This document shows, in pieces, positions 13,891 to 34,504 of a stretch of 64,000 nt of DNA (position 1 is its first letter; each line of letters begins with the position of its first letter). The notes beneath the pieces were generated by a model. That model was not told where the DNA came from. It searched no databases and was given only the letters and a program-made list of their open reading frames with translations. This stretch comes from Bacteroides sp. ET71. GTDB taxonomy: Bacteria; Bacteroidota; Bacteroidia; Bacteroidales; Bacteroidaceae. The stretch lies in assembly GCF_023336905.1 (NCBI RefSeq), contig NZ_JAMBLS010000010.1, positions 33,882 through 97,881 on the forward strand, written 5' to 3'. Both the position numbers and the translations under genes were made by a program.

Positions 13891-16800
13891 ATGATTATGA
13901 CGGATACATGTCTTAATATAATAACGCAGTTAACGGTTGAATTACATAAAGATGATACCTCAAAAGAAAAGTTGGGGACTGGTGTGCTTTATACCAATAG
14001 GAAATTGTCTGGGGTGATATATGTTTTGACGGCCAAGCATTGCCTTGTAAAGTTAGGGGAAAAAGGTAGGGTATCGTTAAGAATTTATAAACCTGATACC
14101 AGTACATACGAATACGTTACCCCTGTTAAGCAAAAAATTTTGCTTCATCCCGTAGACGATGCAGGTATAATCATTATTAATAAACGAGAGCTTGCCCCGG
14201 TTGTCTCTGACCTTCCATCGGTGTACGTGATTGATAAGAATTTTGGAGTTGACGAAGCAGTGAGTAAGGGATTCCCTGTGGCAACCCTTGATCAGACCAA
14301 CGAAAATGGAGAGTCATTCTTGGCAATGATCAGAATGACTTACCTTCATGAAGATATAACTGAGAATGTATTCCAGCTTTCTACAAATGACGATTATAGT
14401 GAAGATACAATTATCGGAATGTCAGGTTCCGGTATTTTTATAGAAGCTTGTGAGGAGTTGTATATTAATGGAATTTTCATTAGGTACACTGATGAGGAGC
14501 GTGGAAAGGTTATAAGTGCTCAGAGGTTGATTTCCTTCAATAAACTGCTGGAAAAAGAGTATAAAAAGAAAATGTCATTGTCATTCCTCGGGTATCACGG
14601 TTTAGGACATAAGACATTAAAAAACAATGTTGAAGATTCCGTAGCAAACTTGGGTCCAAGATATTGTAAGAAAGTCAATGTTAAGACAGGAGCTGCCAAG
14701 TATTTTGACTGCGTGGCAAAAACTCCTGCATATTTTGAGCGATTGTACAAAAATATAGATTCTTGGTTAACAGAGAAAAGCTATAGAACAAGAAAGGATT
14801 CTATTAGAATAGGCCAGTTAGAATCTCATCTTAAAGCGATTCGAGACGATTTTATTGTAGCATTGGCAGATTTGGATCAACATGTAGATTCTATCATTGA
14901 TTTTTCAGGTTTGATGAAGCGCGTTGAATCTCTTCAAAACGAAATAGAAGAAGTTAGACTTAGATTTTATTCTGATTATTCCTCGACAAAAAAAGATGAT
15001 AATGTAAGGAAAGAGCTTGAAGCTGATGAAGCCAGATTATCAGAAATATCTCAAGATTTGTATTCATTCACTGAAAACTTTGAAGATTTAAAGATTAATC
15101 TAGCAAACAATCCCTATTTGATAATTAAGGGTGAAGCTGGTTGTGGAAAGTCGCATTTGTTAGGTGATGTTGCCAGTAAGAGAATCGATGATGGTCTGCC
15201 CACTTTGTTGTTCTTAGGAACAGACTTCTCTGAGGGGGCTTATGAAACAACCATTACTTCAAAAGTAGGTTTTGTAGGTTCTTTCCGGGAATTCCTATCC
15301 AGTTTCAATCAGATAGGAACCCAAGTAGGTTCGAGGGCACTTCTGATGATTGATGCGCTGAATGAAGGACCTCAGGCTGTATTATGGAAAGACAAACTTT
15401 CTGGACTTATCAAGTCTCTTAAAGACTATCCTGCGATAGGTTTAGTGGTGTCAGTGCGTGATACATACTTTGATGATGTTATTCCCGATGGGGTGGAAAC
15501 TGATTCGGGAGCTACCGTTATTGAGCATAAAGGATTTAAAGGTTTGGAATATGAGGCGGTAAGACAGTTCTGTTCGGCGTATGAGTTGAACTTGCCCAAT
15601 GTTCCCATTCTTACACCTGAGTTTTGTAACCCTTTATTTTTGAAGATAATTTGCGATACACTTGAAACCTCTGGAGAGAAAAATTTTCCTAAAGGATTTA
15701 ATGGCGTTTCATCACTGTTTAATCAGTACTTCAAGAATTTGGATAAGAAGTTTGCTGAAAAGAGATCCGAATATAAATATAGGGATGTTGTCAGTGCGGC
15801 GGTTAAACTGCTGGCATTCCCTATATTTGAGGCTAAATATAATCTTCTAAGGATAAAAGATGCAGACTCATTATTGCAACAACAATTTCCTTCTTGTCAT
15901 AATTTGCTTGCAGATCTAATAGACAACAATTTGCTGCTTAAAACGAAGTATTCTTTTGATGGAGAAAATATCGACGGTGTTGTTTTCTCTTATCAGAGGA
16001 TCAGTGATTTTATAATTGCGCGTGAAATTGTCAATAAGTTTCGAGATTGGGAATCGTTTGCAGAAAACATAAATACAGACAAAACTTTGCATTCCATTTT
16101 TGTAGACAAGCATTGGTCATTCAACGGAATTCTAGAAGCTATGGCTATCTTAATCCCCGAGAGATTTTCTCATGAGATGACAGATGTCATTCATTTCATT
16201 CCAGAAGATGAGTTTGAAAGAGTATATTATACATGTCTTGACACAATTTCTGAGGCCGAGATAAATAGTTTGTGTTGGCGCACTATAGAATCCATTGACA
16301 AAAAAACTATAAGGCAGTTTCTAGGCTCCAAATATTGCAATATAGATTCTGATTATTGGTATAATAAATTGGTAGAGTTTTCAACTATCCCTAATCATCC
16401 TTTTAATGCTGATTATTTTCATACACTAATGATGGGGTTTACCATGCCAAAACGTGATGGCAGATTCCAATTCTTTTTCAATGGTTGCGCAGGATATGAT
16501 GATAACAGGTGTGCCAATCCTCTGCGGCGTTTGATAGACTGGGCATGGGCTGAAAATGTATCTGTAAAAGCAGATCCCGAATCAACTAGATTGGCAGCCA
16601 TTATGCTTTGTTGGTTGCTGTCATCAACATATATTAAACACAGAGATGAGGCAACAAAAGCTCTTGTCAACCTTCTTTCTGAGCAGGTAGAAGTATTGAT
16701 TGAAACGCTACGCCAGTTTGAGAATGTGGATGATATGTATATCTATGAACGGTTGTATGCTGTGGCTTACGGGGTCGCATTGCGGACTTCATCACGCGAT

Positions 16801-18591
16801 GGGCTGTTGAAACTTGCAAGATATGTATATGAAACCATTTTCAAACGTAATAACCCACCAAAAAATATTTTACTGCGAGATTATGCAAGAAATATTGTTG
16901 AGTACGCCAGATATAAGGGGGCTATAACTGCTGTTGATATGAAAAAGGTTCGCCCGCCATATGCGACCACACTCCCTACATGGCCTGCCGATGATGAAGT
17001 TAACTACTTTCATATTGATTATGATGCACCAGATTTCAAGGAAAGAAAAGGTTCGGAGCAAAACCTAATTTGGGAATCGGTGAAAGGTGGGTTGGCGGAT
17101 TTCTGGAATAAGATAGCTATGCCGACAATCGAACACTTTTATCCAATACCGATTTCTGATGAAAAAGAATTCAATAAAGCATTACGTCTGTTTAAGGGAA
17201 GTATGAAGAAACTGGCTAAAAATATGTGTGAAAGGAAAGCTGTTTTAATCTTAAATAGGCAAAAAGGGCTAAAGAATGCTAGCGAAAACGATACTATGTT
17301 CGAAATTATTTGTAATAAGATAGAAAAGTTAATGTCGGTAGAGCAGAAAAAGGCTTTATACGAAATAATGATTCCTTTTAAAGTAAGGGAATTACCTTTG
17401 AAGCAACATCATTATGATAGATTTCCAACTGAAGGGATTAGAAATTGGGTTGTTAAGAGAGCCTATGAATTAGGATTTGATGTGAATTTGCATGGTGCTT
17501 ACGATCGTTTTGCAAAGAACTGGACGTTCCGTAATTCAGATAAAAGAATAGACCGCATAGGAAAGAAATATCAGTGGATAGCCTTTCATGAGATTATGGG
17601 GATCTTGGCAGACAATTACAAATATGAGGATGATTATGCAAACGAGGGCTCTGGAGGATATGAGCTGTTTCATGGAACATGGCAATCTTTTCTGAGAAAT
17701 ATCAATCCTTCAATGATTGCAAGAGTAAAAAGCGTTGAGAGTGAGGCTGCGGATGATAACTGGGCGGCTGAAGAACACGAATGGTATGAGGAAGAACAGT
17801 TTGATAACTGGGAGTATTCTGGTACAAATGAATCATGGGCATCCATGATTAGAGATTTGCCAGATCCTGTTTCTTTAATCCAAAAATTGGATGATAACGG
17901 CATAGAATGGTTGACCCTGAATAACTCCAGGAGTTGGGATGAACCCAAAGACATTGGTAAGGAAAAATATGAGTATAAACACTTAAAGCATGATGTCTAT
18001 TTGGCTGCAGATGCCATCCTTGTAAAGCAACAAGACAAAGAGGAGGCAATACAGTCTTTAGATGGTAGAGATTTATGGAATGGTGTAGAATTACCAACCG
18101 ACGACTGGCAATATCTTGTGAACAGGGAAAAATACTGGTCACCAGCATATAAAGATGTTTATAGAAACCGACAAGGTTGGGCAAATTCAATAGATGGGCT
18201 AGATGTACCATATTATTATTCTTGTGAGCAAGCCTGCGGACATATTGAAGCTGACATGTCAGGCACTATCAGCAAATATAGCATTCCGTGCAGGTTATTA
18301 TTCGAGGGTATGGGCATGGAGTATGATTCACATGACGGTCAATATTTGGATAAAGACGGCAACCTTGTGGCGTTAACATATGGGTACGACCAGATTTTGG
18401 TTAAAAAGGAGCCTCTTTTACGATTTTTGAAGCAAAGTGGACTGGCTATCTTGTGGATTGTACGGGGGGAAAAGCGGGTATATATAAGTGGAGGAATGGG
18501 ATGTCAGTGCCTATATGCCCCATGTGGAGTATATTATTTGGATGATAACAATGTTCCGGAAGGTGTCCTTAGAACATATAAGAGAGTGTGA
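13891..18591 (+). CDS. Trypsin-like protease fused to a STAND-type NTPase (Avs1-like)
   Basis: A 1,566-residue protein. Residues 1 to about 210 are a trypsin-like serine protease: TAKHC (His50), VDDAGI (Asp89/90) and GMSGSG (Ser178) form the triad. Residues about 290-400 look coiled-coil. A STAND/NACHT-like NTPase follows, with Walker A GEAGCGKS near 414-421 and Walker B LLMIDALNE near 485. About 900 C-terminal residues follow and probably act as the sensor. In Avs1 systems a protease, a metallo-beta-lactamase protein and a STAND NTPase act together against phage. Here protease and NTPase are one polypeptide, and the metallo-beta-lactamase gene follows one base after the stop. The start ATG is followed by a second ATG two codons later. 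A phage-sensing role is inferred. Confidence 0.85.
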   Translation: MIMTDTCLNIITQLTVELHKDDTSKEKLGTGVLYTNRKLSGVIYVLTAKHCLVKLGEKGRVSLRIYKPDTSTYEYVTPVKQKILLHPVDDAGIIIINKRELAPVVSDLPSVYVIDKNFGVDEAVSKGFPVATLDQTNENGESFLAMIRMTYLHEDITENVFQLSTNDDYSEDTIIGMSGSGIFIEACEELYINGIFIRYTDEERGKVISAQRLISFNKLLEKEYKKKMSLSFLGYHGLGHKTLKNNVEDSVANLGPRYCKKVNVKTGAAKYFDCVAKTPAYFERLYKNIDSWLTEKSYRTRKDSIRIGQLESHLKAIRDDFIVALADLDQHVDSIIDFSGLMKRVESLQNEIEEVRLRFYSDYSSTKKDDNVRKELEADEARLSEISQDLYSFTENFEDLKINLANNPYLIIKGEAGCGKSHLLGDVASKRIDDGLPTLLFLGTDFSEGAYETTITSKVGFVGSFREFLSSFNQIGTQVGSRALLMIDALNEGPQAVLWKDKLSGLIKSLKDYPAIGLVVSVRDTYFDDVIPDGVETDSGATVIEHKGFKGLEYEAVRQFCSAYELNLPNVPILTPEFCNPLFLKIICDTLETSGEKNFPKGFNGVSSLFNQYFKNLDKKFAEKRSEYKYRDVVSAAVKLLAFPIFEAKYNLLRIKDADSLLQQQFPSCHNLLADLIDNNLLLKTKYSFDGENIDGVVFSYQRISDFIIAREIVNKFRDWESFAENINTDKTLHSIFVDKHWSFNGILEAMAILIPERFSHEMTDVIHFIPEDEFERVYYTCLDTISEAEINSLCWRTIESIDKKTIRQFLGSKYCNIDSDYWYNKLVEFSTIPNHPFNADYFHTLMMGFTMPKRDGRFQFFFNGCAGYDDNRCANPLRRLIDWAWAENVSVKADPESTRLAAIMLCWLLSSTYIKHRDEATKALVNLLSEQVEVLIETLRQFENVDDMYIYERLYAVAYGVALRTSSRDGLLKLARYVYETIFKRNNPPKNILLRDYARNIVEYARYKGAITAVDMKKVRPPYATTLPTWPADDEVNYFHIDYDAPDFKERKGSEQNLIWESVKGGLADFWNKIAMPTIEHFYPIPISDEKEFNKALRLFKGSMKKLAKNMCERKAVLILNRQKGLKNASENDTMFEIICNKIEKLMSVEQKKALYEIMIPFKVRELPLKQHHYDRFPTEGIRNWVVKRAYELGFDVNLHGAYDRFAKNWTFRNSDKRIDRIGKKYQWIAFHEIMGILADNYKYEDDYANEGSGGYELFHGTWQSFLRNINPSMIARVKSVESEAADDNWAAEEHEWYEEEQFDNWEYSGTNESWASMIRDLPDPVSLIQKLDDNGIEWLTLNNSRSWDEPKDIGKEKYEYKHLKHDVYLAADAILVKQQDKEEAIQSLDGRDLWNGVELPTDDWQYLVNREKYWSPAYKDVYRNRQGWANSIDGLDVPYYYSCEQACGHIEADMSGTISKYSIPCRLLFEGMGMEYDSHDGQYLDKDGNLVALTYGYDQILVKKEPLLRFLKQSGLAILWIVRGEKRVYISGGMGCQCLYAPCGVYYLDDNNVPEGVLRTYKRV

Positions 18592-18592
18592 T

Positions 18593-19651
18593 ATGAGACT
18601 GTTCTGTTACAAAGCAAAGTGTGGTGATGCATTTCATCTACAATATGAGGGTGAAAGTGGTAGATGTCGTAACATATTTCTTGACATGGGGTACTCTAAG
18701 ACTTATACCCAGGTGTTGAAAGGTGTTATTTCAAATCTTATTAGGAGTTCAGAACAGATAGATGCTTTGTTCTTGTCCCATATTCATGATGACCACATTG
18801 GCGGAGCTGGTAGATTCATAAAAGATATTCAAAAAGATTGTGCTTTGGGGAATGTTGTTTGTCGGTGGATATATAATCCGCCAAGAATGTATGATGTTGA
18901 ACAAACTTTTGATAATAAGAATGGAGTGCTATGTGGCATAGTCTCAGGGGATAAAGTCTATGAATATATTCAGTCACATAGCCCATTAGATTTGGGTGAT
19001 GTTATAGAGGGGATGTCTTTTAGTATTGATGGAATGAGGATAACAATCCTTTCTCCTGATGAGGACAAACTGAACCTACTTAGAGAAAAATATTCAAACA
19101 ATCGTCCATTGTGTAAGTCTGAAACAAATGAGATTAGTGTTGAAGCGGGTAATGTTGTTGATGATTATGCAACATCACTGAATGATTTTAATACAGACTG
19201 TTTTCAAGAAGACATAAGTGTTGAGAACGCCAGCAGTATAGCCGCATTGTTTGAGTGTGTGGGGAAAAGAATTTTATGGCTTTCTGACTCTGTGCCATCA
19301 GTTATAATACACTCATTGTTTAAACTAGGATATTGTGAAGCGAACAAACTGCATTGCGATGCTGTCTTGCTTTCGCATCATGGAAGTGTAGCAAATAATA
19401 GCTTAGCTCTATTTAAGATGATACAATGTGAAAAGTATATTATTAGCGCAGATGGAATTAATCGTTATTGTCTACCAAACAAAGAAACTGTAGCAAGAAT
19501 AATTTCTGCTTCTTCGAAACTACCTGTAACGCTGTATTTAAATTATGATGATGGCCGGTTGGTGAGAATGTTTAAATCTGATGTCCCAGAGTATGTGAAA
19601 TCAATGATTGATATTCATTATTTACATGATATGGAGGCTATCGATTTATGA
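18593..19651 (+). CDS. Metallo-beta-lactamase-fold hydrolase of the Avs1-like system
   Basis: The preferred start is the ATG at 18593, one base after the STAND stop codon, giving 352 residues (MRLFCYKAKCGDAF). A longer frame to 18488 would overlap the STAND gene and adds unlikely sequence. The metal motif HIHDDHIGG gives His63, His65, Asp67 and His68 (HxHxDH). Later ligands are in LWLSDSV and LLSHHGS. The layout resembles the ComEC/Rec2-type metallo-beta-lactamases that act on nucleic acids or nucleotides. Tight coupling to the protease-STAND gene supports an effector or partner role in that system. The element IS-A begins about 30 bases downstream of the stop. Confidence 0.86.
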   Translation: MRLFCYKAKCGDAFHLQYEGESGRCRNIFLDMGYSKTYTQVLKGVISNLIRSSEQIDALFLSHIHDDHIGGAGRFIKDIQKDCALGNVVCRWIYNPPRMYDVEQTFDNKNGVLCGIVSGDKVYEYIQSHSPLDLGDVIEGMSFSIDGMRITILSPDEDKLNLLREKYSNNRPLCKSETNEISVEAGNVVDDYATSLNDFNTDCFQEDISVENASSIAALFECVGKRILWLSDSVPSVIIHSLFKLGYCEANKLHCDAVLLSHHGSVANNSLALFKMIQCEKYIISADGINRYCLPNKETVARIISASSKLPVTLYLNYDDGRLVRMFKSDVPEYVKSMIDIHYLHDMEAIDL

Positions 19652-20958
19652 ACTGAAAAGGGTCAGACATGTCATGAACTGGAGACTGTAAACTAAAGTG
19701 TGTCAAGTAAAGGAAAAGCGATTAACTTTACAGACACACTTAAATTATGAGCAATTCATTTGATTTTGAAGGGTTCAAGGCGAATGCTATTGAACAATTG
19801 AAGGCCGGAGTCCCTCTTTCCGGCAAGGATGGAGTATTGGCACCGCTGTTGGAGAATCTGCTTAACAGCGCCCTTGAAGGAGAGATGGACAGCCATCTGG
19901 AAGGAGGCGAACGCGAGTTTGGCAACCGCCGCAACGGACACATGAGCAAGCAGGTACAGACTTCGATGGGCGAAGTGACCATAAACACACCGCGCGACCG
20001 GGACGGCACATTCGATCCCCAGGTTGTGCGCAAACGCGAGAAGATCCTTGCGGACTCACTAGCGGACCGGATCATAGGCCTGTACGCCATCGGCAACAGC
20101 ACAAGAGAGATAAGCGACATCCTGGAGGAGCAGTTCGGCAACCGCATATCGGCCGAGACCATCAGCAGCATCACGGACCGAGTCCTACCTGAGATACAGA
20201 GCTGGAAAAACCGTCCCCTGGACCGGGTGTATCCCATCGTATGGCTTGATGCGGTTCATTACAAGGTAATGGACGAGAAGAACCGGCCTGTGACCAGAGC
20301 CATATATAATGTGCTGGCGCTCAATTCAGAAGGACGGAAAGAACTTTTGGGCATGTATATATCCAAGAGCGAGGGAGCCAACTTCTGGCTCGGGGTTCTT
20401 ACGGATCTCCAGAACAGAGGAGTCCAGGATATCCTCATAGCCTGCGTGGACGGGCTCAAGGGCTTTCCAGATGCGATTGCAAGTGTTTTCCCGGAGACCA
20501 CGGTCCAACTGTGCATCGTGCACCAGATCCGCAACTCGATCAAGTATGTCGCGAGCAAGAACCAGAAGGCGTTCATGCGGGACCTGAAGCTCGTATACCA
20601 GGCTGTCAATAAGGATGCCGCTGAAAAGGCTCTTGACGATCTTGAAATCAAGTGGGGCGAGGACTATCCGATTGTCATCAAGAGCTGGCGAGACAACTGG
20701 GACCGACTGACCGCTTATTTTCAGTATTCACAGCATATCAGGAGGATAATATACACCACCAATACTGTGGAGGGCTATCATCGCCAGTTGCGCAAGGTAA
20801 CCAAGGACAAGGGAGTATTTACCTCCGACACCGCCCTTGAAAAACTTGTCTATCTCGCATTTACGCGAATCCGGAAGAAGTGGTAGTGTTTCATTCAGTG
20901 TGTCTGGAGTGAGTCTTCAGACCTCCTAGTTTTGCAAATATATCAATTTATCTGTTAA

Positions 20959-20986
20959 CTCATCGGCAGGCATGCCTGCCAATGAG
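20959..20986. repeat. 28-base near-perfect palindrome after the IS-B transposase
   Basis: GGCAGGCATGCCTGCC is a perfect 16-base core at 20965-20980; with one mismatch the pairing extends to 20959-20986. It could fold into a strong hairpin. It lies 5 bases beyond the transposase stop and may end transcription or shield against read-through. Confidence 0.6.
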
Positions 20987-20991
20987 CATTT

Positions 20992-22158
20992 TTATTCGTC
21001 CGGGAATAGAGTTCTGTCAAGATCGATTCTCGGGACCTGCCTCAGGTAGGACTTCTTGTCCATGGCAGTCTTTCCCATAAGCAGGATGACCGATTCCTCG
21101 TTGGGCATTGCTCCGCGCATCCTCGTGACCCGCCTAAAGTCCTTCTGCAGCCGCTCTATCCAGTTCGTGGTGTAGATCATGGACTGGATGCGGTGGTCGT
21201 AATTCAGGTAAGTGAAATACGCCTTGTAGGAAGCATCCTCACCACGTCTCCTGATACTTCTGTAATACCTGCCCCATTTAGCACAGAACTGCTGCCACTC
21301 ATCCCAGGCCTGTTCCACGGTATAGTTCCTGTCTCCTGTGCGGAAGACCTGTCTCAGGTCGTCAGCAACATCCCCCTTGTCACCGTTGCGGACATCGCTC
21401 AGTATGTTGCGCTTCAAGTGGGTGGTGCATCTCTGGAGGCTGGTGCCGGGAAACACTTCGCTGACAACATCATCAAGTCCCTTGAGACCATCCGCACATA
21501 TGAGCCCGATTCTCGAGACACCTCTCTCGTAAAGGTCATTGAGCATCTCTCCCCAGCCAAGGGCGCTTTCCGTAGGCTTGTTATAGATGCCGAGAACCTC
21601 CCTGGTCTTGTCATCCTTGACGGCAAGGATGACATAGAAAGCTTCCGTATCAACGCTGCGCTTGCGGTGGATCTTGATATGGACGCAGTCGATAAACACT
21701 ACAGGATAATAGCTCTCCAGAGAGCGTTCAAGCCACTCGGTGACATCTCGGCGCAGATAGTCAAGCATCCTCGATATGCTAGCCTTGCTGTAGTGCTCCC
21801 CATAGATGTCGTTGAACACTTCCCCGACCTGTTCCTGCGTCAGGCCTTTGGTGTACAACGTGCCGGCAAGACGTTCACACTCTTCCTCCTGATCGCGCAG
21901 TATGGCCAGTATGCGGGGATGGAAGTTCCCGTATCGGTCACGAGGTATACGGAAGGTCAGTGTCCGGCCATGACCGTATGTCCTGCCGGGACGGTAGCCG
22001 TTGCACTTGTTCCCGGCTATGCCTTCTTCCTGAAGATATTCCCTGCGTTCCGACACCATGAGGCTCTCAAGCATTATCTCCATCATGTCCTGTAACCCGT
22101 TTTCTTTTTCCGTATGCTTGCATATTAGCTCGGAAAGTTGTTCCTTTGTGAAATCCAT
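20992..22158 (-). CDS. IS256-family transposase of IS-B
   Basis: A 388-residue transposase of the Mutator/IS256 family, complete. The DDE residues are in VVFIDCVHIKI (Asp), LICADGLKGLDD (Asp) and TTNWIERLQKDFRR (Glu); the CHxxR-like region TTHLKRN is present. It is only distantly related to the IS-A enzyme. Codon use is GC-richer than the flanking defence genes, consistent with recent arrival. An inverted repeat at 20959-20986 lies just after the stop. Confidence 0.93.
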   Translation of the reverse strand: MDFTKEQLSELICKHTEKENGLQDMMEIMLESLMVSERREYLQEEGIAGNKCNGYRPGRTYGHGRTLTFRIPRDRYGNFHPRILAILRDQEEECERLAGTLYTKGLTQEQVGEVFNDIYGEHYSKASISRMLDYLRRDVTEWLERSLESYYPVVFIDCVHIKIHRKRSVDTEAFYVILAVKDDKTREVLGIYNKPTESALGWGEMLNDLYERGVSRIGLICADGLKGLDDVVSEVFPGTSLQRCTTHLKRNILSDVRNGDKGDVADDLRQVFRTGDRNYTVEQAWDEWQQFCAKWGRYYRSIRRRGEDASYKAYFTYLNYDHRIQSMIYTTNWIERLQKDFRRVTRMRGAMPNEESVILLMGKTAMDKKSYLRQVPRIDLDRTLFPDE

Positions 22159-22337
22159 AAAGTCTACTCTTTTTTAGGTTTTGTTTGTTTTGCTTTTACA
22201 AATCTAAAAAATCTGTAGACTTTTTTATTATCCTATCTCAGACACACTTTTTGAAACAGTATCGAAGAAGTGGACGCAACCGGTCCAGAACTGGGGGCAG
22301 ACCGCCCAGCAACTGGCGATCCTGTTCCCGGACAGGT

Positions 22338-23570
22338 TCAGGATACTGGCCTGAAAAACACTTTTATTTGGAGTTCTTTGATAGGTTTGATAAATTCGCG
22401 ATCAGAGTTGGCGGACATGTCCGCCAACTCTGATCCAACAAAACTAAGCTTGACACAGTTCAGTTTACACTGCCATGTTTTCTGCTCGCCACTCTTCAAA
22501 AACCATCGATGTTCACAAACGTATAAGGCTTCTGTAATGTCTACCGTACTATTGCTTTGTTTGGCCTCACTTCTTTGTAGATGTACGATATCCCATAGAC
22601 CATCCTTGTTTTGATGCAATTGGAATCTATGCAGGAGAATACCGCTGCGGCAGACATAAATCCAGCCATCATCGAGATAGAATCCATATCGTGCCTCCCA
22701 ACCCGTATCAAATGCTTTGAGAATACGTCTGCGTAATTCGGTGTTAATCCGTATGTTCTGAAACGGATTCTCAATCGTAATCCAGTTATGGAGTTCCACA
22801 TTTGTCAAGGCGCGGTTTTTAGGGTAGAATACACGGACATTTTCTTTGTGTTGTTTGATGGTGTTGAGAATGTCTGAATATTTTGCAATGATGCTGTCAG
22901 GAAACACAATATGGTTGTACCAGTTTCCCTCCGGTCTGTATTTCTTTTTGAGAAACGTCATTTCACAGCTATACATGGCCTCGGCAAACGCTCCTGTAAG
23001 AATGGTATTGACTTGTCTGTTTCCGGGAAGTTTTATCGCATTGTGTATGGCACTTGTATAGTCGAAAGCGCAATAGAAAGCATTCCATGCACGGATAAGT
23101 ATGCTGAGCGCTCCAGTCCCTTTCTGCCAGTTATCGTTTTGTGCAAAAGAGTAGAATGTACCACCAAATTCCACTTGCCCGGCCTCTTTCTTTGTTGTCC
23201 CATGCCGTAATGCGTAGATGATTTCAGCCATAAAGGATGCAGCATAAATTTCTTCTTTGTCGTTCCATAGACAATAACAATAGGTCTTTATGGCATGTCG
23301 CATTTCTTCTTCATTCTCATACAGCCATGCAACAGCAATTGCCCTTATGACAGATTTTATCCGCTCTTTTTCCCATCCGTCAAAAGAGAACAGTCTCCGA
23401 TATTCGCTTATCGGCACATCTCTGTCATGTATGAGGGCATCGCATGTAACCAATAAGGTATGGGCATAATCTGACAATTTTGCTTCCTGAGAAACCAATT
23501 TCGGATAAAAGCTCTCGTGATCGTTCTCCCACGTCCATGCCGTCAAGTCACCTATGATTGCACCTAACAT
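22338..23570 (-). CDS. Degenerate ADP-ribosylglycohydrolase-like protein, 3' end altered by IS-A
   Basis: A 410-residue protein that begins MLGAIIGDLTAWTWEN, matching the start of the DraG/ADP-ribosylglycohydrolase fold (GAxxGDxxG). The spots for the metal-binding acidic motifs are degenerate: the expected GGDTDT-type motif appears as LPGNRQVNTILTGAFAEA. Hydrolase activity is therefore doubtful, and it may bind rather than cut ADP-ribose. The last 45 or so residues, after GEQKTWQ, are translated from IS-A sequence (22338-22474), so the native C-terminus was replaced. It is the last gene of the mcrB-mcrC-radical SAM-HIRAN operon, 14 bases after the HIRAN gene. Confidence 0.65.
   Translation of the reverse strand: MLGAIIGDLTAWTWENDHESFYPKLVSQEAKLSDYAHTLLVTCDALIHDRDVPISEYRRLFSFDGWEKERIKSVIRAIAVAWLYENEEEMRHAIKTYCYCLWNDKEEIYAASFMAEIIYALRHGTTKKEAGQVEFGGTFYSFAQNDNWQKGTGALSILIRAWNAFYCAFDYTSAIHNAIKLPGNRQVNTILTGAFAEAMYSCEMTFLKKKYRPEGNWYNHIVFPDSIIAKYSDILNTIKQHKENVRVFYPKNRALTNVELHNWITIENPFQNIRINTELRRRILKAFDTGWEARYGFYLDDGWIYVCRSGILLHRFQLHQNKDGLWDIVHLQRSEAKQSNSTVDITEALYVCEHRWFLKSGEQKTWQCKLNCVKLSFVGSELADMSANSDREFIKPIKELQIKVFFRPVS
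22400..22435. repeat. 36-base perfect palindrome near the right end of IS-A
   Basis: All 36 bases are self-complementary around the centre ACATGT; the core reads GGCGGACATGTCCGCC. It lies between the IS-A transposase stop and the right terminal repeat. It mirrors the palindrome in IS-B, so both elements carry a palindrome just after the transposase gene. A terminator role is likely. Confidence 0.75.
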
Positions 23571-23584
23571 ATTTCCAAAATATT

Positions 23585-24727
23585 TTATCTGCCGTCAAAT
23601 TGAGGTTTTTCTATTCCAAACAATTCATACAGTCTTCCTGATGCAGATTCGGAAAGGTATGTTTCAGGCTGACCGCTTTCTACCGGCTCTCCGTTCAGAA
23701 AATCAAGCTGCTCGTTAGCTACAGTGACGGGACCTTTGACATTGGTAAAGACATAGAAACAACAGTCGTCAACGGCATGAAGGAGTTCTTTTTCTTCCAC
23801 AAAATAGGCAGCGTCATCATCGCCTACGGCTATACAATAGAGTAGGTAAAGATCTACTTCGTTTCCATGTCTATAGATGAATACCACCTTGTCCTTTTTC
23901 TTCGGAAGATTTCGTTTCCAAGGCGGAAAGCCACCCCAACGAAAATAGGTACATCCCTGATTGAGCAACGAGATTGTGAAGTCGGCAAATTCTTCGTCAT
24001 CAAGCTCCATCGCCCTCAGCAGATGGTTGGTAACCTCCACTTCATCCTTGCTTACAATATAGATTTTCATATACAGTTTCCCGGTTCGTGGATTCTCTCC
24101 CTCGATCCGGCTGAGTTCGCATCCAAAAGTCTCTGTCCAGCCCATATCCAACATCATGGCTATGGGCTCATTCTCGGTACGTGGAACATAACCTAAGATA
24201 TAATCGAAATCAAAATCTTCGGGATCGCCATTGTAATCATCTGCCAATGCTACGGCAACGGCATTCCTATCGTGCAGATTGCCTTTCTCTCTGACCAAAG
24301 CAAGTTCCGCACCCTCATAAAGTTCATCCCATACATTTTCAAGATTGTGAAATGTAGTTCCTGCTATATGACACTCTTTATACAGAACATGAATTTTTCG
24401 GCGGGGTATGAAAGGTGGTGCAGGCATACCATCCAGCGGAAGTTCAGGAGCAGCTACTTCACCCTGAAGAATATGTATGTCTGCATTTTCAGTTGTGTCA
24501 TCTCCACTGCCTTGAATGGGGATTTTCACATTCAGGTCAATATCCATAATTCCTTTCCTGTTTAACTGTTCCTGCAAGTCACGCAGTTCTGCATCACATT
24601 TGGAACAAGTGCCCGTGCACTCGCCCTTGTGGGTACATTCTGTCGGGACGTATTCCAAACCATACTGTTCTGCTATCTGCTTTCGGATTGCTTTCAGTCT
24701 TTCGCATTTTTCTTTACCAGTTTCCAT
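23585..24727 (-). CDS. HIRAN-domain protein with N-terminal four-cysteine site
   Basis: A 380-residue protein. Near residues 31-45 is CTHKGECTGTCSKC, a Cys-x5-Cys-x3-Cys-x2-Cys site that could hold an iron-sulfur cluster or zinc. Residues about 115-215 form a HIRAN domain: ECHIAGTTFHNLENVWDELY, LVREKGNLHDRNAVAV and ILGYVPRTENEPIA. HIRAN domains bind DNA ends in Rad5/HLTF-type proteins. The C-terminal part has an acidic region and is not assigned. It follows the radical SAM gene by 19 bases. A role in recognising DNA ends for the McrBC operon is inferred. Confidence 0.72.
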   Translation of the reverse strand: METGKEKCERLKAIRKQIAEQYGLEYVPTECTHKGECTGTCSKCDAELRDLQEQLNRKGIMDIDLNVKIPIQGSGDDTTENADIHILQGEVAAPELPLDGMPAPPFIPRRKIHVLYKECHIAGTTFHNLENVWDELYEGAELALVREKGNLHDRNAVAVALADDYNGDPEDFDFDYILGYVPRTENEPIAMMLDMGWTETFGCELSRIEGENPRTGKLYMKIYIVSKDEVEVTNHLLRAMELDDEEFADFTISLLNQGCTYFRWGGFPPWKRNLPKKKDKVVFIYRHGNEVDLYLLYCIAVGDDDAAYFVEEKELLHAVDDCCFYVFTNVKGPVTVANEQLDFLNGEPVESGQPETYLSESASGRLYELFGIEKPQFDGR

Positions 24728-24746
24728 GTTCGTAGTGTTATGAATG

Positions 24747-25409
24747 TTAGCGGTTATTGGTTCTATATCTTACCTTTATAATGTCCGTGAAGTTAAAGCG
24801 TCGTTCAATATCCTTGATATCGAGGTCTAAATCGCGACCGTCAGTAAATCCGGGTATCTGCGGAACTTTTATCGTTACCTTTTCCTGTGGTATGTTCATT
24901 TGAAGTAAGCTCAGTTGCTGTAGAACTCCTGATGTCTTTCCTGTATATTGCTCGTAGGCGGGTGGATCCATTGTCTTGATATCTACAATCCAATGGTCAA
25001 CCACCTCGCTCAACTGTTTAATTACGTTATCTGAGCAATGCAGGCAGGTCTCTAAGGTAATCTTCCATCTATGACCGCATATCTTCCGAAACTCCACAAT
25101 GAAATCCGCGTACATTGTAGGTTCTCCACCACCAAAGCAAATGCCTCCGCCCGTGGTTTGGAAATAGGGATTGTCAACTTTCACCAACTCATACAGGTTT
25201 TGAGGCGTAAGCATCATTATGTTTTTCAGCAGAGTTGTGCCGTCAGTTTCATAGACGGGTTCGTGGCATTGCGGATTCAGGCAGTATTTACAATTCAGAG
25301 GACAGCCCATGAAAGCCACTAGCGTAGTAATGCCCTTGCCGTCAGTCCCCATACGCAGCCTGCTGATGGCGAATATCGGTGCTTTTATTGTACTTCCGAA
25401 GTCTTGCAT
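24747..25409 (-). CDS. Radical SAM protein, glycyl-radical-activase-like
   Basis: A 220-residue protein. GCPLNCKYCLNPQC gives the CxxxCxxC cluster site (Cys36, Cys40, Cys43). RMGTDGKGITTLVAFMGC matches the start of pyruvate formate-lyase activase-like enzymes, and ICFGGGEPTMYADF is the GGGEP S-adenosylmethionine motif. No glycyl-radical enzyme partner is in the window. It starts 2 bases after mcrC and is followed by the HIRAN gene, so it belongs to the operon. The substrate is unknown; modification of a neighbouring protein or of a nucleotide is possible. Confidence 0.82.
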   Translation of the reverse strand: MQDFGSTIKAPIFAISRLRMGTDGKGITTLVAFMGCPLNCKYCLNPQCHEPVYETDGTTLLKNIMMLTPQNLYELVKVDNPYFQTTGGGICFGGGEPTMYADFIVEFRKICGHRWKITLETCLHCSDNVIKQLSEVVDHWIVDIKTMDPPAYEQYTGKTSGVLQQLSLLQMNIPQEKVTIKVPQIPGFTDGRDLDLDIKDIERRFNFTDIIKVRYRTNNR

Positions 25410-25411
25410 AG

Positions 25412-26455
25412 TTAGTATATCACTAATTTATCTAGATCGTTTTTGATATGCTCAAAATCCCGACTTAGATCCATGGTTCTGACCATCAAGATATTCCCGT
25501 CATTAGTTTTAAAATTGCCATAAGGTTGAATGTCTGCTGCTGTCTTAGCATACAACAGCAGACCATCTACATTCCCGGTATGATCCTTGTCTTCATTCAT
25601 AACGTAAGTGTGTATTTGATAGATGTTAGAGGAGTGGAAGGTGGGCTTACCGAAATGCTCCTGAAAGTTCCTGCTGTAATATTTAGTGTCAATGATAAGT
25701 GTTCGCTCATCAAGCGTCAGCGTAATGTCTGATTGCATGATAGGCAACATGCTTGATGAACTTACACTATTGTCGCTAACATTCCATTTTATCTGCTTTG
25801 CAGAGGCTTTATATTCCGGATGATGCCTCTTGTAGTATTCTATTACAAAACGCTGGAACAGCAGGTTCATGTGTTCGTCAGAGAACTGTGGCATTTTGGT
25901 GTCACCTTGTTCTGTAGATAATAGCTGGTTCTTCAATATGAAATAGCACAAACTATGCAACATCTGATAAGTTCTGGAGTTCCTGTCGTATCTTAATGAA
26001 TCCCATCTTATGAATGATGGATTCATGGTGTCAACGCCGTCAAAGAACAGCATCAGTTTTCTGAGGCTTCTTTTCCTCTCAATTTTAACATCAGATTTAC
26101 CAAGAAGTAAATTGACTGTTGTTTTTACAATTGCATTGTAGAGATTATTGGCTGTAAGTTCATCATATTCACAGGCAAGGCATGTACGCTGACTGATTTT
26201 CTCTTTGATTGTTCCTTGTATGTCTAACTTACCTCTTAAGGTGGTCAGAGTGTCTTCTATGATGGCATACTCCTTATGCAATCCTTGTTTTAATAGATAT
26301 GCTATGCCTTTGGAGATAATTTCGGCAAACAGGTCGTATATATTGTCGAAACTTTCTCCGGCTATATACTCATAATTGTTGTGTCTCAACTCCTTGAATG
26401 CGTAGGTGAGCATATAGTATATGTTCTTTATGGGTATGGTTCTGTCTATTGTCAT
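25412..26455 (-). CDS. mcrC: McrC-family nuclease subunit
   Basis: A 347-residue protein with the McrC layout: IPIKNIYYMLTYAF at the start, LRGKLDIQGTI in the middle, and a PD-(D/E)XK nuclease in the last third, MQSDITLTLDERTLIIDTKYY (Asp and the D-x-K). In McrBC, McrC docks on the McrB ring and cuts modified DNA. The start overlaps mcrB by 4 bases. Active-site residues are present, so it is probably functional. Confidence 0.87.
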   Translation of the reverse strand: MTIDRTIPIKNIYYMLTYAFKELRHNNYEYIAGESFDNIYDLFAEIISKGIAYLLKQGLHKEYAIIEDTLTTLRGKLDIQGTIKEKISQRTCLACEYDELTANNLYNAIVKTTVNLLLGKSDVKIERKRSLRKLMLFFDGVDTMNPSFIRWDSLRYDRNSRTYQMLHSLCYFILKNQLLSTEQGDTKMPQFSDEHMNLLFQRFVIEYYKRHHPEYKASAKQIKWNVSDNSVSSSSMLPIMQSDITLTLDERTLIIDTKYYSRNFQEHFGKPTFHSSNIYQIHTYVMNEDKDHTGNVDGLLLYAKTAADIQPYGNFKTNDGNILMVRTMDLSRDFEHIKNDLDKLVIY

Positions 26456-28827
26456 TTTAACAAGCTTCTCAAGGTGTTGATATGTGATTCATACTTTTGG
26501 ACATCATCAAACCAGTACTCCTTGAGCATAGGCTCGATGTCATATTCAATCACATTCTCCAACCATTCCATAGAGAACGCCGACTGATTACAGAAGTAGC
26601 TGTGACCTATACAGAATCCACTGCCTAATGAATCGTCATTGCTGATGGATTCATTGAGCACCTGTATGCCGTCAATGATATTGTCTAGTTTTTTATTCGA
26701 CAAAGACGCTATATAGCTTTTGAAGCCTTCTGTCTTAAAGCCGGGTTTCATCTCAAAGAAACTGAACCGTCTGCGAAGCGCATAGTCTATCATGGCCAAA
26801 GAGCGGTCAGCGGTATTCATCATGCCGATGATGTATAAGTTCTCCGGTACGGAAAAAGGTTCATCCGTGTATGCCAACCTGATTTCTTTTCCCCGATAGC
26901 TGTTTTCAATAAGCATCAGTAATTCTCCAAAAATCTTACTGAGATTTCCTCGGTTGATTTCATCTATGATAAAGAAAAAATCTTTGTCTGGAGTATTCTG
27001 TGCTTTCTTGCAGAATCTATAGAATATACCGTATTTCAGCTCAAATCCTCCATCCGCATTGGGCTTGTAACCCAGAATAAAGTCCTCGTATGAATAGTTT
27101 TGGTGGAATTGGATAAGTTCGATTCTTTGTTTGTCTTTGACGCCCATGAGTGTATAAGCTAACCTTTCTGCCGTGAAAGTTTTGCCCACTCCTGGTGCTC
27201 CTTGAAGAATGATATTCTTCTTGTTCTTTAAGCAGGCCTTTAGTCTATGCAGGTCTGTAGAAGACATGTAAACCTCATTCAGAAAATTCGAATCAGTATA
27301 TGCCTCAAGAGTCTGTGTTGCCGATAGTGGATTCTCCTTGCGGATTATTTCCATCAGCACTTGATACTCGTCTTCTGTGACTTTGAAAAGTGTGCCACGT
27401 CCACCGCCAGCTAAGCACTCCATGTTATGCAATTCTTCATACCCTTTAATGGTCGAGTAATCAATGGGATTCAGTAGCTGTTCTGTCTTCCTGAAGTATA
27501 GGTGCTTGTCATCTGTGTCCTTGGCTATTTCTCCCAACGCAACCACTTGCAGGGTCGGAGTCGATGCATAACCTATGACGACATCACCTGCTTTGGCATC
27601 CAGAAAGTTTTGGTATACTCTACGTTTATTGCCATTTTCGTTCACCAATGTATATTCGATAATCTCACCAACATCAATATCTGAGAACTTCCATACGTCA
27701 GGAGACGCTACCAGCCACCAGTATTGCTTTGATGTTGTTGACTGGGATGGTGCTGTTTCATTCCCGTCAATAACAATATCATTCAGGTTCTTTACGAATT
27801 CCGGATATTTGGAAATGTCCGTTAGCGTTTTCTGCACAAGCTTGTGAATGGAATAGTTCCAGTCTCCGTCGTGAGTCCATTTTACTTTTCGGATGTGACG
27901 GTAAGTCGATAGGGTTTCGTCGTAACGGTAGTCACCTTCTACAACTCCTCGTCCGATAATCTTGTTAATGCCTTTCTTGACATATATAATATCTCCCTCA
28001 CGAACCTCATGTGCAAACTGCCATAGCGCAAGACTGTCATTCTTAAATGAAGCATCCTCCTTGCCGTAGGCCACCTGTAACGCTTTGGTCAGTTCTTCTC
28101 TGTTTTCGAACTCAGATAAGTCGCCAATCAAGTCCCAGCCAAGACGCATGGTTTGGGATTCTTTGCACTCATCCCACATACAGGCATTTTCACCTGGGGC
28201 AAAGAGCCAGACTTTGCTCTTTGCTTTAAATTTTTCTGCCTCCATAATGGCAAGCAGTTCATCGTAGAATACATATAAATCTTTATCCCCTTTCTTCTCA
28301 AGTAAAAATTTGTATAAATCAACTCTGGAGCGTTTCTTTGCGTTTGGTAGTCCAAAATGAGTGGCGAGAGGAATCAGCCAACCGTCTTTATCGTAAATAG
28401 GCAATAACTGCTCATTAGAATATAAGAATGCGATCTTCCATGTAGTTATAGGCCAAAGTTCTTTCATCTTCTCAATCTCGCCCCATTCCGCATTGCGTGC
28501 ATGGTGGGCTATCTTTACAATTGCATTCCGGACATTGTTGAATGCTTCTTCAGAAGTGCTTCCCAAACGGCTACTCCACGAATAGTTCTCATCATGTGCG
28601 TATTTTGAATTATCGTCTTTGGGAGTTCTGTCGAACTTAAAAATGCCGAATTTATATGCAGCACCACCCCATATTGACCCTAATTCTTTTGTCTTTGCTT
28701 CAAGCCAATAGCAGAATGAATTATCTCTATTAAGATTGCTATACTCTTCCAAAGTCATATTCTCAAGACTTTCAATAGGGAATTGCTGTAGAAATTGGTT
28801 ATATAATGTTCTTCTATCCATGTTCAA
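26452..28827 (-). CDS. mcrB: McrB-family AAA+ GTPase with two EVE/PUA-like modules
   Basis: A 791-residue protein. Residues 1 to about 200 form an N-terminal region with a charged helical part. Residues about 205-330 (KVWLFAPGENACMW, GDIIYVKKG) and about 365-500 (YWWLVASPDVWKF, GDVVIGYASTP) look like two EVE/PUA-type domains, a fold used to read modified bases. The AAA+ core has Walker A GAPGVGKT near 543-550, Walker B FFIIDEINRGNLSK near 615, and the McrB signature MMNTADRSLAMIDYALRRRF near 667. It heads the five-gene minus-strand operon. Two readers could widen the range of modifications detected. Confidence 0.87.
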   Translation of the reverse strand: MNMDRRTLYNQFLQQFPIESLENMTLEEYSNLNRDNSFCYWLEAKTKELGSIWGGAAYKFGIFKFDRTPKDDNSKYAHDENYSWSSRLGSTSEEAFNNVRNAIVKIAHHARNAEWGEIEKMKELWPITTWKIAFLYSNEQLLPIYDKDGWLIPLATHFGLPNAKKRSRVDLYKFLLEKKGDKDLYVFYDELLAIMEAEKFKAKSKVWLFAPGENACMWDECKESQTMRLGWDLIGDLSEFENREELTKALQVAYGKEDASFKNDSLALWQFAHEVREGDIIYVKKGINKIIGRGVVEGDYRYDETLSTYRHIRKVKWTHDGDWNYSIHKLVQKTLTDISKYPEFVKNLNDIVIDGNETAPSQSTTSKQYWWLVASPDVWKFSDIDVGEIIEYTLVNENGNKRRVYQNFLDAKAGDVVIGYASTPTLQVVALGEIAKDTDDKHLYFRKTEQLLNPIDYSTIKGYEELHNMECLAGGGRGTLFKVTEDEYQVLMEIIRKENPLSATQTLEAYTDSNFLNEVYMSSTDLHRLKACLKNKKNIILQGAPGVGKTFTAERLAYTLMGVKDKQRIELIQFHQNYSYEDFILGYKPNADGGFELKYGIFYRFCKKAQNTPDKDFFFIIDEINRGNLSKIFGELLMLIENSYRGKEIRLAYTDEPFSVPENLYIIGMMNTADRSLAMIDYALRRRFSFFEMKPGFKTEGFKSYIASLSNKKLDNIIDGIQVLNESISNDDSLGSGFCIGHSYFCNQSAFSMEWLENVIEYDIEPMLKEYWFDDVQKYESHINTLRSLLK

Positions 28828-28921: not shown

Positions 28922-28943
28922 CACAATAAAATTGCATTTAAGG

Positions 28944-29150
28944 ATGAAGTTAAATAGGATAAAGGCAGTCTTGGTGGACAAAGGCATTTCTCAGACGTGG
29001 TTGGCTAAAAAGCTGGATAAGAGTTTCAGTATGGTTAATGCCTATGCTTGTAACAGAATCCAGCCAAACTTGGAGACACTGCAACAGATAGCAGAGATCC
29101 TTCAAGTTGACTTAAAAGATCTGATAACAGATAAGGATGAACGAGAATGA
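28944..29150 (+). CDS. XRE-family HTH regulator
   Basis: A 68-residue protein, MKLNRIKAVLVDKGISQTWL. The helix-turn-helix spans LAKKLDKSFSMVNAYACN, and the C-terminus has VDLKDLITDKDE, usual for Cro/C1-type regulators. A TTG four codons earlier is possible, but the ATG fits the family start and spacing from the -7 box. It lies between divergent McrBC and the type I operon (hsdR starts 61 bases later). Small XRE proteins often act as control proteins for restriction genes. Confidence 0.82.
   Translation: MKLNRIKAVLVDKGISQTWLAKKLDKSFSMVNAYACNRIQPNLETLQQIAEILQVDLKDLITDKDERE

Positions 29151-29211: not shown

Positions 29212-34504
<5,293 letters not shown>

Follow-up and report, generated by a model that had tools for sequence, protein, structure and literature searches.

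Five genes packed on the minus strand of a 64,000-nucleotide stretch of Bacteroides sp. ET71 (contig NZ_JAMBLS010000010.1, positions 33,882 to 97,881 of the forward strand; the whole stretch is called the window) probably include a portable unit that serves restriction systems as an accessory. The unit stands behind McrBC in a Bacteroides defence island, and we read it, with somewhat more confidence than doubt, as a sensor of DNA ends and modified bases that is matured by a radical S-adenosylmethionine (radical SAM, rSAM) protein. The genes are mcrB (28827-26452), mcrC (26455-25412), the radical SAM gene (25409-24747), a gene for a HIRAN protein (24727-23585) and an ADP-ribosylglycohydrolase (ARH)-like gene (23570-22338). 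An overlap of 4 bases (mcrB/mcrC) and gaps of 2 (mcrC/rSAM), 19 (rSAM/HIRAN) and 14 bases (HIRAN/ARH) agree with the packed single-strand arrangement described in an initial annotation of this DNA. The constant unit was found to be smaller than the five genes: it consists of the rSAM protein and a five-cysteine domain carried by the HIRAN protein, and this pair also occurs outside defence.

The HIRAN protein (23585..24727, minus strand) is composed of three parts. The N-terminal part, 61 residues long (24545..24727, minus strand), is the five-cysteine domain, for which neither Pfam nor NCBIfam holds a model. When 44 distinct copies were aligned, C31 and C37 were present in 44/44, C8, C41 and C44 in 43/44 each and G39 in 42/44, which corrects to five conserved cysteines the four-cysteine site originally noted on this protein. 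A HIRAN domain follows at residues about 110-229 (24041..24400, minus strand); it had been assigned before, and both sequence (PF08797, 28.2 bits with a cut-off of 24.7) and fold (Foldseek to 4s0n, 1.5e-4) bore the assignment out. The C-terminal part, residues about 232-372 (23612..24034, minus strand), is predicted from a structural model to be PUA-like, of the ASCH/YTH/EVE fold. For HIRAN domains that have been studied, for example that of HLTF, passages of PMC8262856 give DNA-end binding as established.

The rSAM gene (24747..25409, minus strand) encodes a PFL-activase-like protein of 220 residues (PFL, pyruvate formate-lyase) that comprises the core domain only. Membership of the radical SAM superfamily was evident from PF04055 (50.4 bits, cut-off 29.5) and from the CxxxCxxC motif (C36, C40 and C43; 25281..25304, minus strand), which was invariant in 12 aligned family members. 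The closest solved chains were PFL-activating enzymes (3c8f, E 2.5e-11), and activases of that type act on a protein partner. Two more specific assignments were rejected: the protein scored below every NCBIfam cut-off listed for glycyl-radical-enzyme activases (best TIGR02494, 119.6 of 174.35 bits), and on the prokaryotic viperin model NF038283 it reached 15.2 of 180 bits. No glycyl radical enzyme was found among the five operon proteins with Pfam at E≤1. In the rSAM tree, the HIRAN-type rSAMs (16 rows from 12 loci) formed one clade apart from the others (support 100/99).

The coupling of this enzyme to the five-cysteine domain was then seen across genomes. Among 399 genomes of the family, searched with an rSAM match limit of 1e-55 (every match fell at or below 8e-75), 44 carried both rSAM and domain, 5 the domain only, 2 the rSAM only and 348 neither (Fisher 2e-50, relatedness ignored). 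The domain lay within 2 kb on the same strand for 42 of the 46 rSAMs; of the other four, one had it within 2 kb on the opposite strand, one had it on another contig, and two were in genomes without a domain match at 1e-12. At least two genomes hold the pair unlinked, G047 (L070, L071) and G073 (L081, L082). The domain-only genomes were individually informative: in G009 the domain is at a contig end, in G516 an rSAM remnant lies upstream, in G585 (locus L155) C8, C41 and C44 are lost, in G740 (locus L161) the five cysteines are kept while G35, G39 and T40 are lost, and in G022 the domain is part of an ARH fusion. The two of 44 copies that lack G39 are those of L155 and L161, both without an rSAM next door. 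Among 148 relatives, all 20 genomes with an rSAM match (E≤1e-25, window included) also matched the domain in the search with the HIRAN protein. An even sample of 296 genomes of the phylum gave an rSAM match at 1e-30 in 9 and the domain in 2 (the window genome and G039); these two were the ones with rSAM scores of 3e-93 or better, and the seven others, at 3e-37 to 1e-30, were taken as other activases. This sample is thin and supports only the rarity of the domain (2/296).

The same coupling was found within the HIRAN family itself, defined here as loci whose HIRAN protein reached E≤1e-60 in the profile search (at least 18, window included). A scan of the C-terminal part of the HIRAN protein against genome_contigs gave at least 10 loci, and the search of the 399 family genomes added 7 further distinct ones (L150-L156); weaker, short or broken matches were left out of the latter set, except L157-L161, and genes in fetched loci were called as longest open reading frames (ORFs). 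Among the matches listed, an intact domain is accompanied by an adjacent rSAM gene at 12 of 13 loci and by an rSAM remnant at the 13th, against none of six where the domain is absent (L114, L116, L154, L156) or degenerate (L155, L161) (Fisher 2.6e-4); the 13 loci are not independent cases, because L109-L112 are near-identical and the HIRAN gene of L117 is broken further on.

We then considered what else carries the domain. It was found fused to TonB_C (L067), to a serpin (L068) and to an intact ARH (L105). Twenty loci were labelled TonB/serpin-type, by eye except for L067 (TonB_C) and L068 (serpin). In 11 of the 20 (L067, L069, L071-L074, L077, L078, L080, L082 and L083) the domain stands between UvrD-like (AddA-like) and PD-(D/E)XK (AddB-like) genes, domain names that were taken from L067. 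The rSAM is present at 9 of these 11; at L071 and L082 it is missing from the position between the AddA- and AddB-like genes and present elsewhere in the genome (L070, L081). Locus L163 encodes four tandem domain proteins and one rSAM. The ARH fusion of G022 (L105, 8995-10059) retains both Asp motifs, and the starts of two genes upstream of it resemble, by eye, an AAA ATPase and an RloB-like protein. A further N-terminal domain, of the FVFGSNL..GGGAA..GLQGQ.YAIPT type and without a Pfam match, was observed near the rSAM family (L111 7422-8960, L068 11515-13137, L070 5442-5834), alone or fused to NADAR or ARH; by eye it may be macro-like.

That one rSAM family follows a small domain across unrelated proteins points either to a maturase and its target or to an enzyme and an obligate helper domain. 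We favour the former. The latter, which we think rather unlikely, would make the five-cysteine domain a ferredoxin-like or metal-binding helper that supplies electrons or holds the substrate, with the true substrate elsewhere, for example a nucleotide or nucleic acid. The spacing C31-x5-C37-x3-C41-x2-C44 together with C8 could bind an Fe-S cluster or zinc, radical SAM enzymes require an electron donor, and the partner in the window is a DNA protein, all of which speak for a helper; however, the same domain sits on TonB_C, serpin and ARH proteins that share no nucleic-acid theme, and the four tandem partners served by one rSAM in L163 are as expected for substrates of one maturase. If the maturase pattern is correct, the pair might represent a new class of rSAM-dependent maturation in Bacteroidales, a tentative suggestion to which we give less than even weight: a radical-derived change in the five-cysteine domain, for which a thioether, a special Fe-S site or a stable glycyl radical on G39 could be considered, would arm very different proteins, both sensors of DNA ends and modified bases linked to McrBC, BREX, Zac and type I restriction and the TonB-type proteins whose genes are flanked by those for AddA-like and AddB-like proteins.

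The relation of the pair to McrBC was examined in the same genomes. In Prevotella sp. MGM1 (L108) the gene order is HsdR, McrB, McrC, rSAM, an extra 292-residue gene, HIRAN, ARH-like and RecD2, with identities to the window proteins of 58 (McrB), 51 (McrC), 58 (rSAM), 64 (HIRAN) and 36% (ARH). Because the same families recur in order in another genus, with one extra gene, the five-gene arrangement is more than chance. This recurrence and the packed operon support an integrated system, as first proposed, in which McrBC would cut phage DNA that is modified, with the other three proteins as co-factors dedicated to that reaction; four of the families are 51-64% identical between the two genomes. 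We regard such a system as improbable. McrBC adjoins 2 of 18 HIRAN-family loci among the matches listed, the window and L108, and the flanks of five close McrC relatives (50-59%) carried rSAM, HIRAN or ARH-like genes in 0/5; a McrC match was found in 8 of 158 genus genomes, the window's own included. A partial sixth McrC relative (L097) showed no extra genes, and a weak seventh (G166) lay outside the flank comparison. The extra genes are thus rarely found with mcrBC, and the single McrBC-based system is not borne out: of the conserved co-occurrence looked for, one recurrence of the full set stands, and elsewhere McrBC is optional. The trees point the same way. Those of McrB and McrC were weakly resolved and did not pair the window with L108, whereas the HIRAN tree grouped the window, L108 and L152 (100/100), and at L152 rSAM and HIRAN are present and McrBC was not seen, though the contig extends only about 0.7 kb upstream. 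L154 has a single HD-domain gene separating its ARH-like gene from its HIRAN gene, and neither rSAM nor McrBC.

Related units were found beside other anti-virus systems. Of the 18 HIRAN-type loci among the matches listed, 6, a third, lie next to a defence system that could be named: McrBC at the window and L108, BREX PglZ and BrxL at L111 with part of BrxL at L112, Zac at L114, and type I restriction at the window, L108 and L155. A setting beside defence genes, in keeping with the candidate defence operon first proposed, thus holds for some HIRAN-type loci, and for the rest no system could be named. Since the systems differ from locus to locus, the unit looks like an add-on and not a fixed part of any of them. 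In L109-L113 and L150 a NADAR fusion protein stands in front of the unit, indicating that ADP-ribose is a recurring theme whether or not ARH is present. As a further rSAM-NADAR protein link, we observed that in L115 (4841-5857) and L151 (8071-9087) the rSAM is joined to part of the central region of the macro-like/NADAR protein. Standalone HIRAN proteins of 107-127 residues were seen beside helix-turn-helix (HTH)-type regulators (WYL-like by eye) in L099-L102, with a Cas9-like gene at L100 and a type I restriction-modification-like locus at L099, both named by eye. A virus or plasmid origin of the unit was rejected: the viral_contigs set held no relative of the HIRAN part (52 pattern stretches, 0 confirmed), phages gave matches to the HIRAN domain only in 7 Pseudomonas phage records and to the five-cysteine domain in 2 unannotated faecal records, and plasmids gave a single record whose five-cysteine-domain match is annotated TonB.

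Mere proximity could also account for this setting, and we hold it possible, though at less than even odds, that rSAM and HIRAN are a DNA-repair pair in a hot spot beside recD2, alongside which restriction systems have simply been inserted. In L108-L112 RecD2 comes next after the unit or after its ARH gene, and in L155 it immediately precedes HIRAN; a PcfJ-like gene (named by eye) flanks L108, L111, L112 and L155, and sister-type copies of the domain lie between the AddA- and AddB-like genes described above. Against simple insertion stand the 2-base gap between mcrC and rSAM and the 41-base overlap of the L114 HIRAN ORF, taken from its longest start, with zacC, both of which would rarely be expected at random. 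A control was made with PADLOC, in which the neighbours within three genes of 17 HIRAN-type and 20 TonB/serpin-type loci were compared at E≤1e-25. The 87 HIRAN-type neighbours matched 39 families, and the 90 TonB/serpin-type neighbours matched 1, through a single protein; the best 25 of the 39 families were listed, and a family was tied to a locus only where the protein was named otherwise. The 87 were drawn from 98 after 3 ARH-like proteins, five of six RecD2 proteins, the second HIRAN protein of L116 and the L109 and L110 NADAR proteins, both truncated where their contigs end, had been left out. From the 117 TonB/serpin-type neighbours, 11 AddA-like and 11 AddB-like proteins, the long L163 gene and one ORF each of L076, L079, L080 and L083 were left out, so that the control omits AddAB by choice. 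McrBC hardly counts in it, because PADLOC gave no match at 1e-25 for the McrB of the window and none at 0.1 for its McrC.

Several points weigh against an rSAM-matured sensor unit with a role in defence. The Fisher values are not true probabilities, because the compared genomes are related and L109-L112 are near-identical. G022 is a real exception to the pairing, with an intact domain and no rSAM at 1e-55 in a draft genome that is 99% complete. The PUA-like match of the HIRAN-protein C-terminus is one of fold only, with middling Z values of 8.3-8.7, and an AlphaFold2 model of the ARH-like protein, built from two rows, reached a predicted local distance difference test (pLDDT) score of 36 and was not used. 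For 12 of 18 HIRAN-family loci among the matches listed no nameable defence system adjoins, in some because of contig ends. The PADLOC contrast is real but overstated, because single proteins can match several of the 39 families and because four NADAR proteins and the RecD models contribute to that number.

The last gene of the operon encodes an ARH-fold-like protein (22338..23570, minus strand). Its score on PF03747 (20.8 bits, E 3.4e-4) did not reach the cut-off of 26.2, but the profile of its own family retrieved an intact ARH at 5e-11, indicating that the kinship is real. The Asp motifs of ARH, TDDT and GDxDT, have a metal-binding role; they are replaced in 4/4 ARH-like members aligned (window, L066, L108 and L154) and kept in 3/3 intact ARHs. 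The degenerate ARH fold proposed at the outset is thus upheld, with the motifs gone in the window and in all three relatives, and the pattern leads us to read the window protein as a putative ligand-binding pseudoenzyme. When the ARH alignment was run against the sequences of solved structures, nothing matched at E≤1. A single close relative was found among the 148 genomes (50%; G037, L066 5684-9924). Its neighbours are an EcoRI-type methylase and a GmrSD_N-HNH gene, and the fetched 19 kb contain neither a HIRAN nor an rSAM gene; it offers a second restriction-type setting for ARH-like proteins without Asp motifs.

The native part of the window gene extends to about 22470, and the remainder is sequence of an insertion sequence (IS; 19687..22469, no strand assigned), which we take, from its transposase ORFs, to be IS256-like. 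Its terminal inverted repeats lie at 19687-19707 and 22449-22469, and a second IS is nested within it at about 20884-22261; the repeats measured 21 nt (90%) for the element labelled I2 and 23 nt (83%) for I3. The ARH-like ORF enters the right end of the IS at about residue 367, and therefore its last ~43 residues are IS-encoded and not native. Next to the ARH-like gene of L108 no IS was seen. A perfect 36-base palindrome (22400-22435), with 18-base arms and no loop, was observed inside this right end beside the ARH-like gene.

At the other end of the operon, mcrB (26452..28827, minus strand; AAA_5 6.7e-24, above its cut-off) more likely starts at ATG 28821 than at TTG 28827. Its product comprises an N-terminal PD-T4-1-like region (residues 10-179), a PDC-S02-like region (205-320), an EVE domain (368-493; 29.5 bits, cut-off 23) and an AAA+ domain (538-688), and its C-terminus is PRK11331-like (291.7 bits, under the cut-off of 637 of that full-length model). 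Of the two EVE/PUA-like readers originally placed on McrB, Pfam supports the one at 368-493, and the other, at 205-320, gave only PADLOC PDC-S02 matches. mcrC (25412..26455, minus strand) matched NCBIfam NF007277 (344 bits, cut-off 338) and Pfam McrBC (6.9e-35). An AAA+ McrB beside McrC, with a modified-base reader on McrB (EVE above its cut-off), marks the pair as a putative McrBC type IV restriction system. Upstream of the operon lies a divergent HTH regulator (28932..29150, plus strand; PF01381, 3.1e-9), followed by type I restriction genes that are likewise divergent, first R and then M (29212..33346, plus strand; PADLOC REase_I 4.8e-42, MTase_I 1.6e-167). Downstream, at window positions 13891-19651, are Avs2 (1566 residues; 1123 bits with a cut-off of 1000, and PADLOC PDLC02163 at 2131.7 bits across nearly its full length) and an overlapping ORF of the metallo-beta-lactamase (MBL) fold whose nearest match is LmuA (237.5 bits). 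With Avs2 and the LmuA-like gene downstream and type I restriction upstream on the opposite strand, the flanks are those of a defence island. A promoter and terminator scan showed no excess over shuffles (19 versus 18.1 and 5 versus 4.7).

Taken together, the pairing and the domain make-up are consistent with the following mechanism for the rSAM-HIRAN unit. The small rSAM would mature its partner, either by modifying the five-cysteine domain at the N-terminus or by fitting a cofactor into that domain. The matured partner would bind DNA ends through its HIRAN domain and modified nucleotides through its PUA-like C-terminus, and the ligand of the dead ARH-fold protein is probably ADP-ribosyl or derived from NAD. 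The unit may then detect or process broken and modified DNA that McrBC, BREX, Zac and type I systems encounter, and would not be obligate for McrBC. Viperins are the main known case of radical SAM chemistry in phage defence; if the mechanism is correct, a second radical route in defence, leading to a mature DNA sensor, would be novel. The rSAM and its unmodelled domain form a candidate enzyme-substrate pair that can be tested directly, and those HIRAN partners that lack the domain or carry a degenerate one serve as natural controls without an adjoining enzyme. The unit also illustrates how a putative defence add-on can adjoin different restriction systems, and it links the same proposed chemistry to AddAB-like repair operons.

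Searches of open-licence full text brought up no description of the five-gene set or of the rSAM/five-cysteine pair, most subscription papers and preprints lying outside that scope; the initial annotation, too, had known of no described system with this set. The closest published idea found, in section 3.8 of PMC9503650, is that of ARG-centred anti-ADP-ribosylation systems, whose relevant passages describe an ARH fold with NADAR, macro, Nudix and restriction endonuclease (REase) neighbours and a HIRAN-ARPP pair. Those passages take ARG as active, with a phosphatase and a regulator, whereas in the window the ARH lacks the Asp motifs and is accompanied by an rSAM; none of the five operon proteins matched a phosphatase, Nudix or WYL family, which places them outside that group, and neither "radical SAM" nor "rSAM" occurs in that text. 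The first two genes resemble EVE-McrB/McrC type IV restriction as presented in passages of PMC7641849, an AAA+ McrB with an EVE reader and a McrC partner, but differ in having rSAM, HIRAN and ARH-like genes behind mcrC, a set absent from those passages. In the parts of the McrBC census PMC11090510 that bear on these genes, HIRAN appears only as a look-alike of CoCoNuT OB-folds, and neither rSAM nor ADP-ribos occurs in its text. The rSAM protein shares a single CxxxCxxC core with PFL-activating-enzyme-like rSAMs (3c8f) and differs in its partner, a small five-cysteine domain in place of a glycyl radical enzyme, which is missing among the operon proteins. Finally, the HIRAN-HipA type toxin-antitoxin units, in the passages of PMC8262856 that treat them, likewise set a bacterial HIRAN protein beside an effector, with DNA-end binding proposed; the window operon differs from them in being without a HipA kinase, and its HIRAN protein adds a five-cysteine domain and a PUA-like C-terminus.

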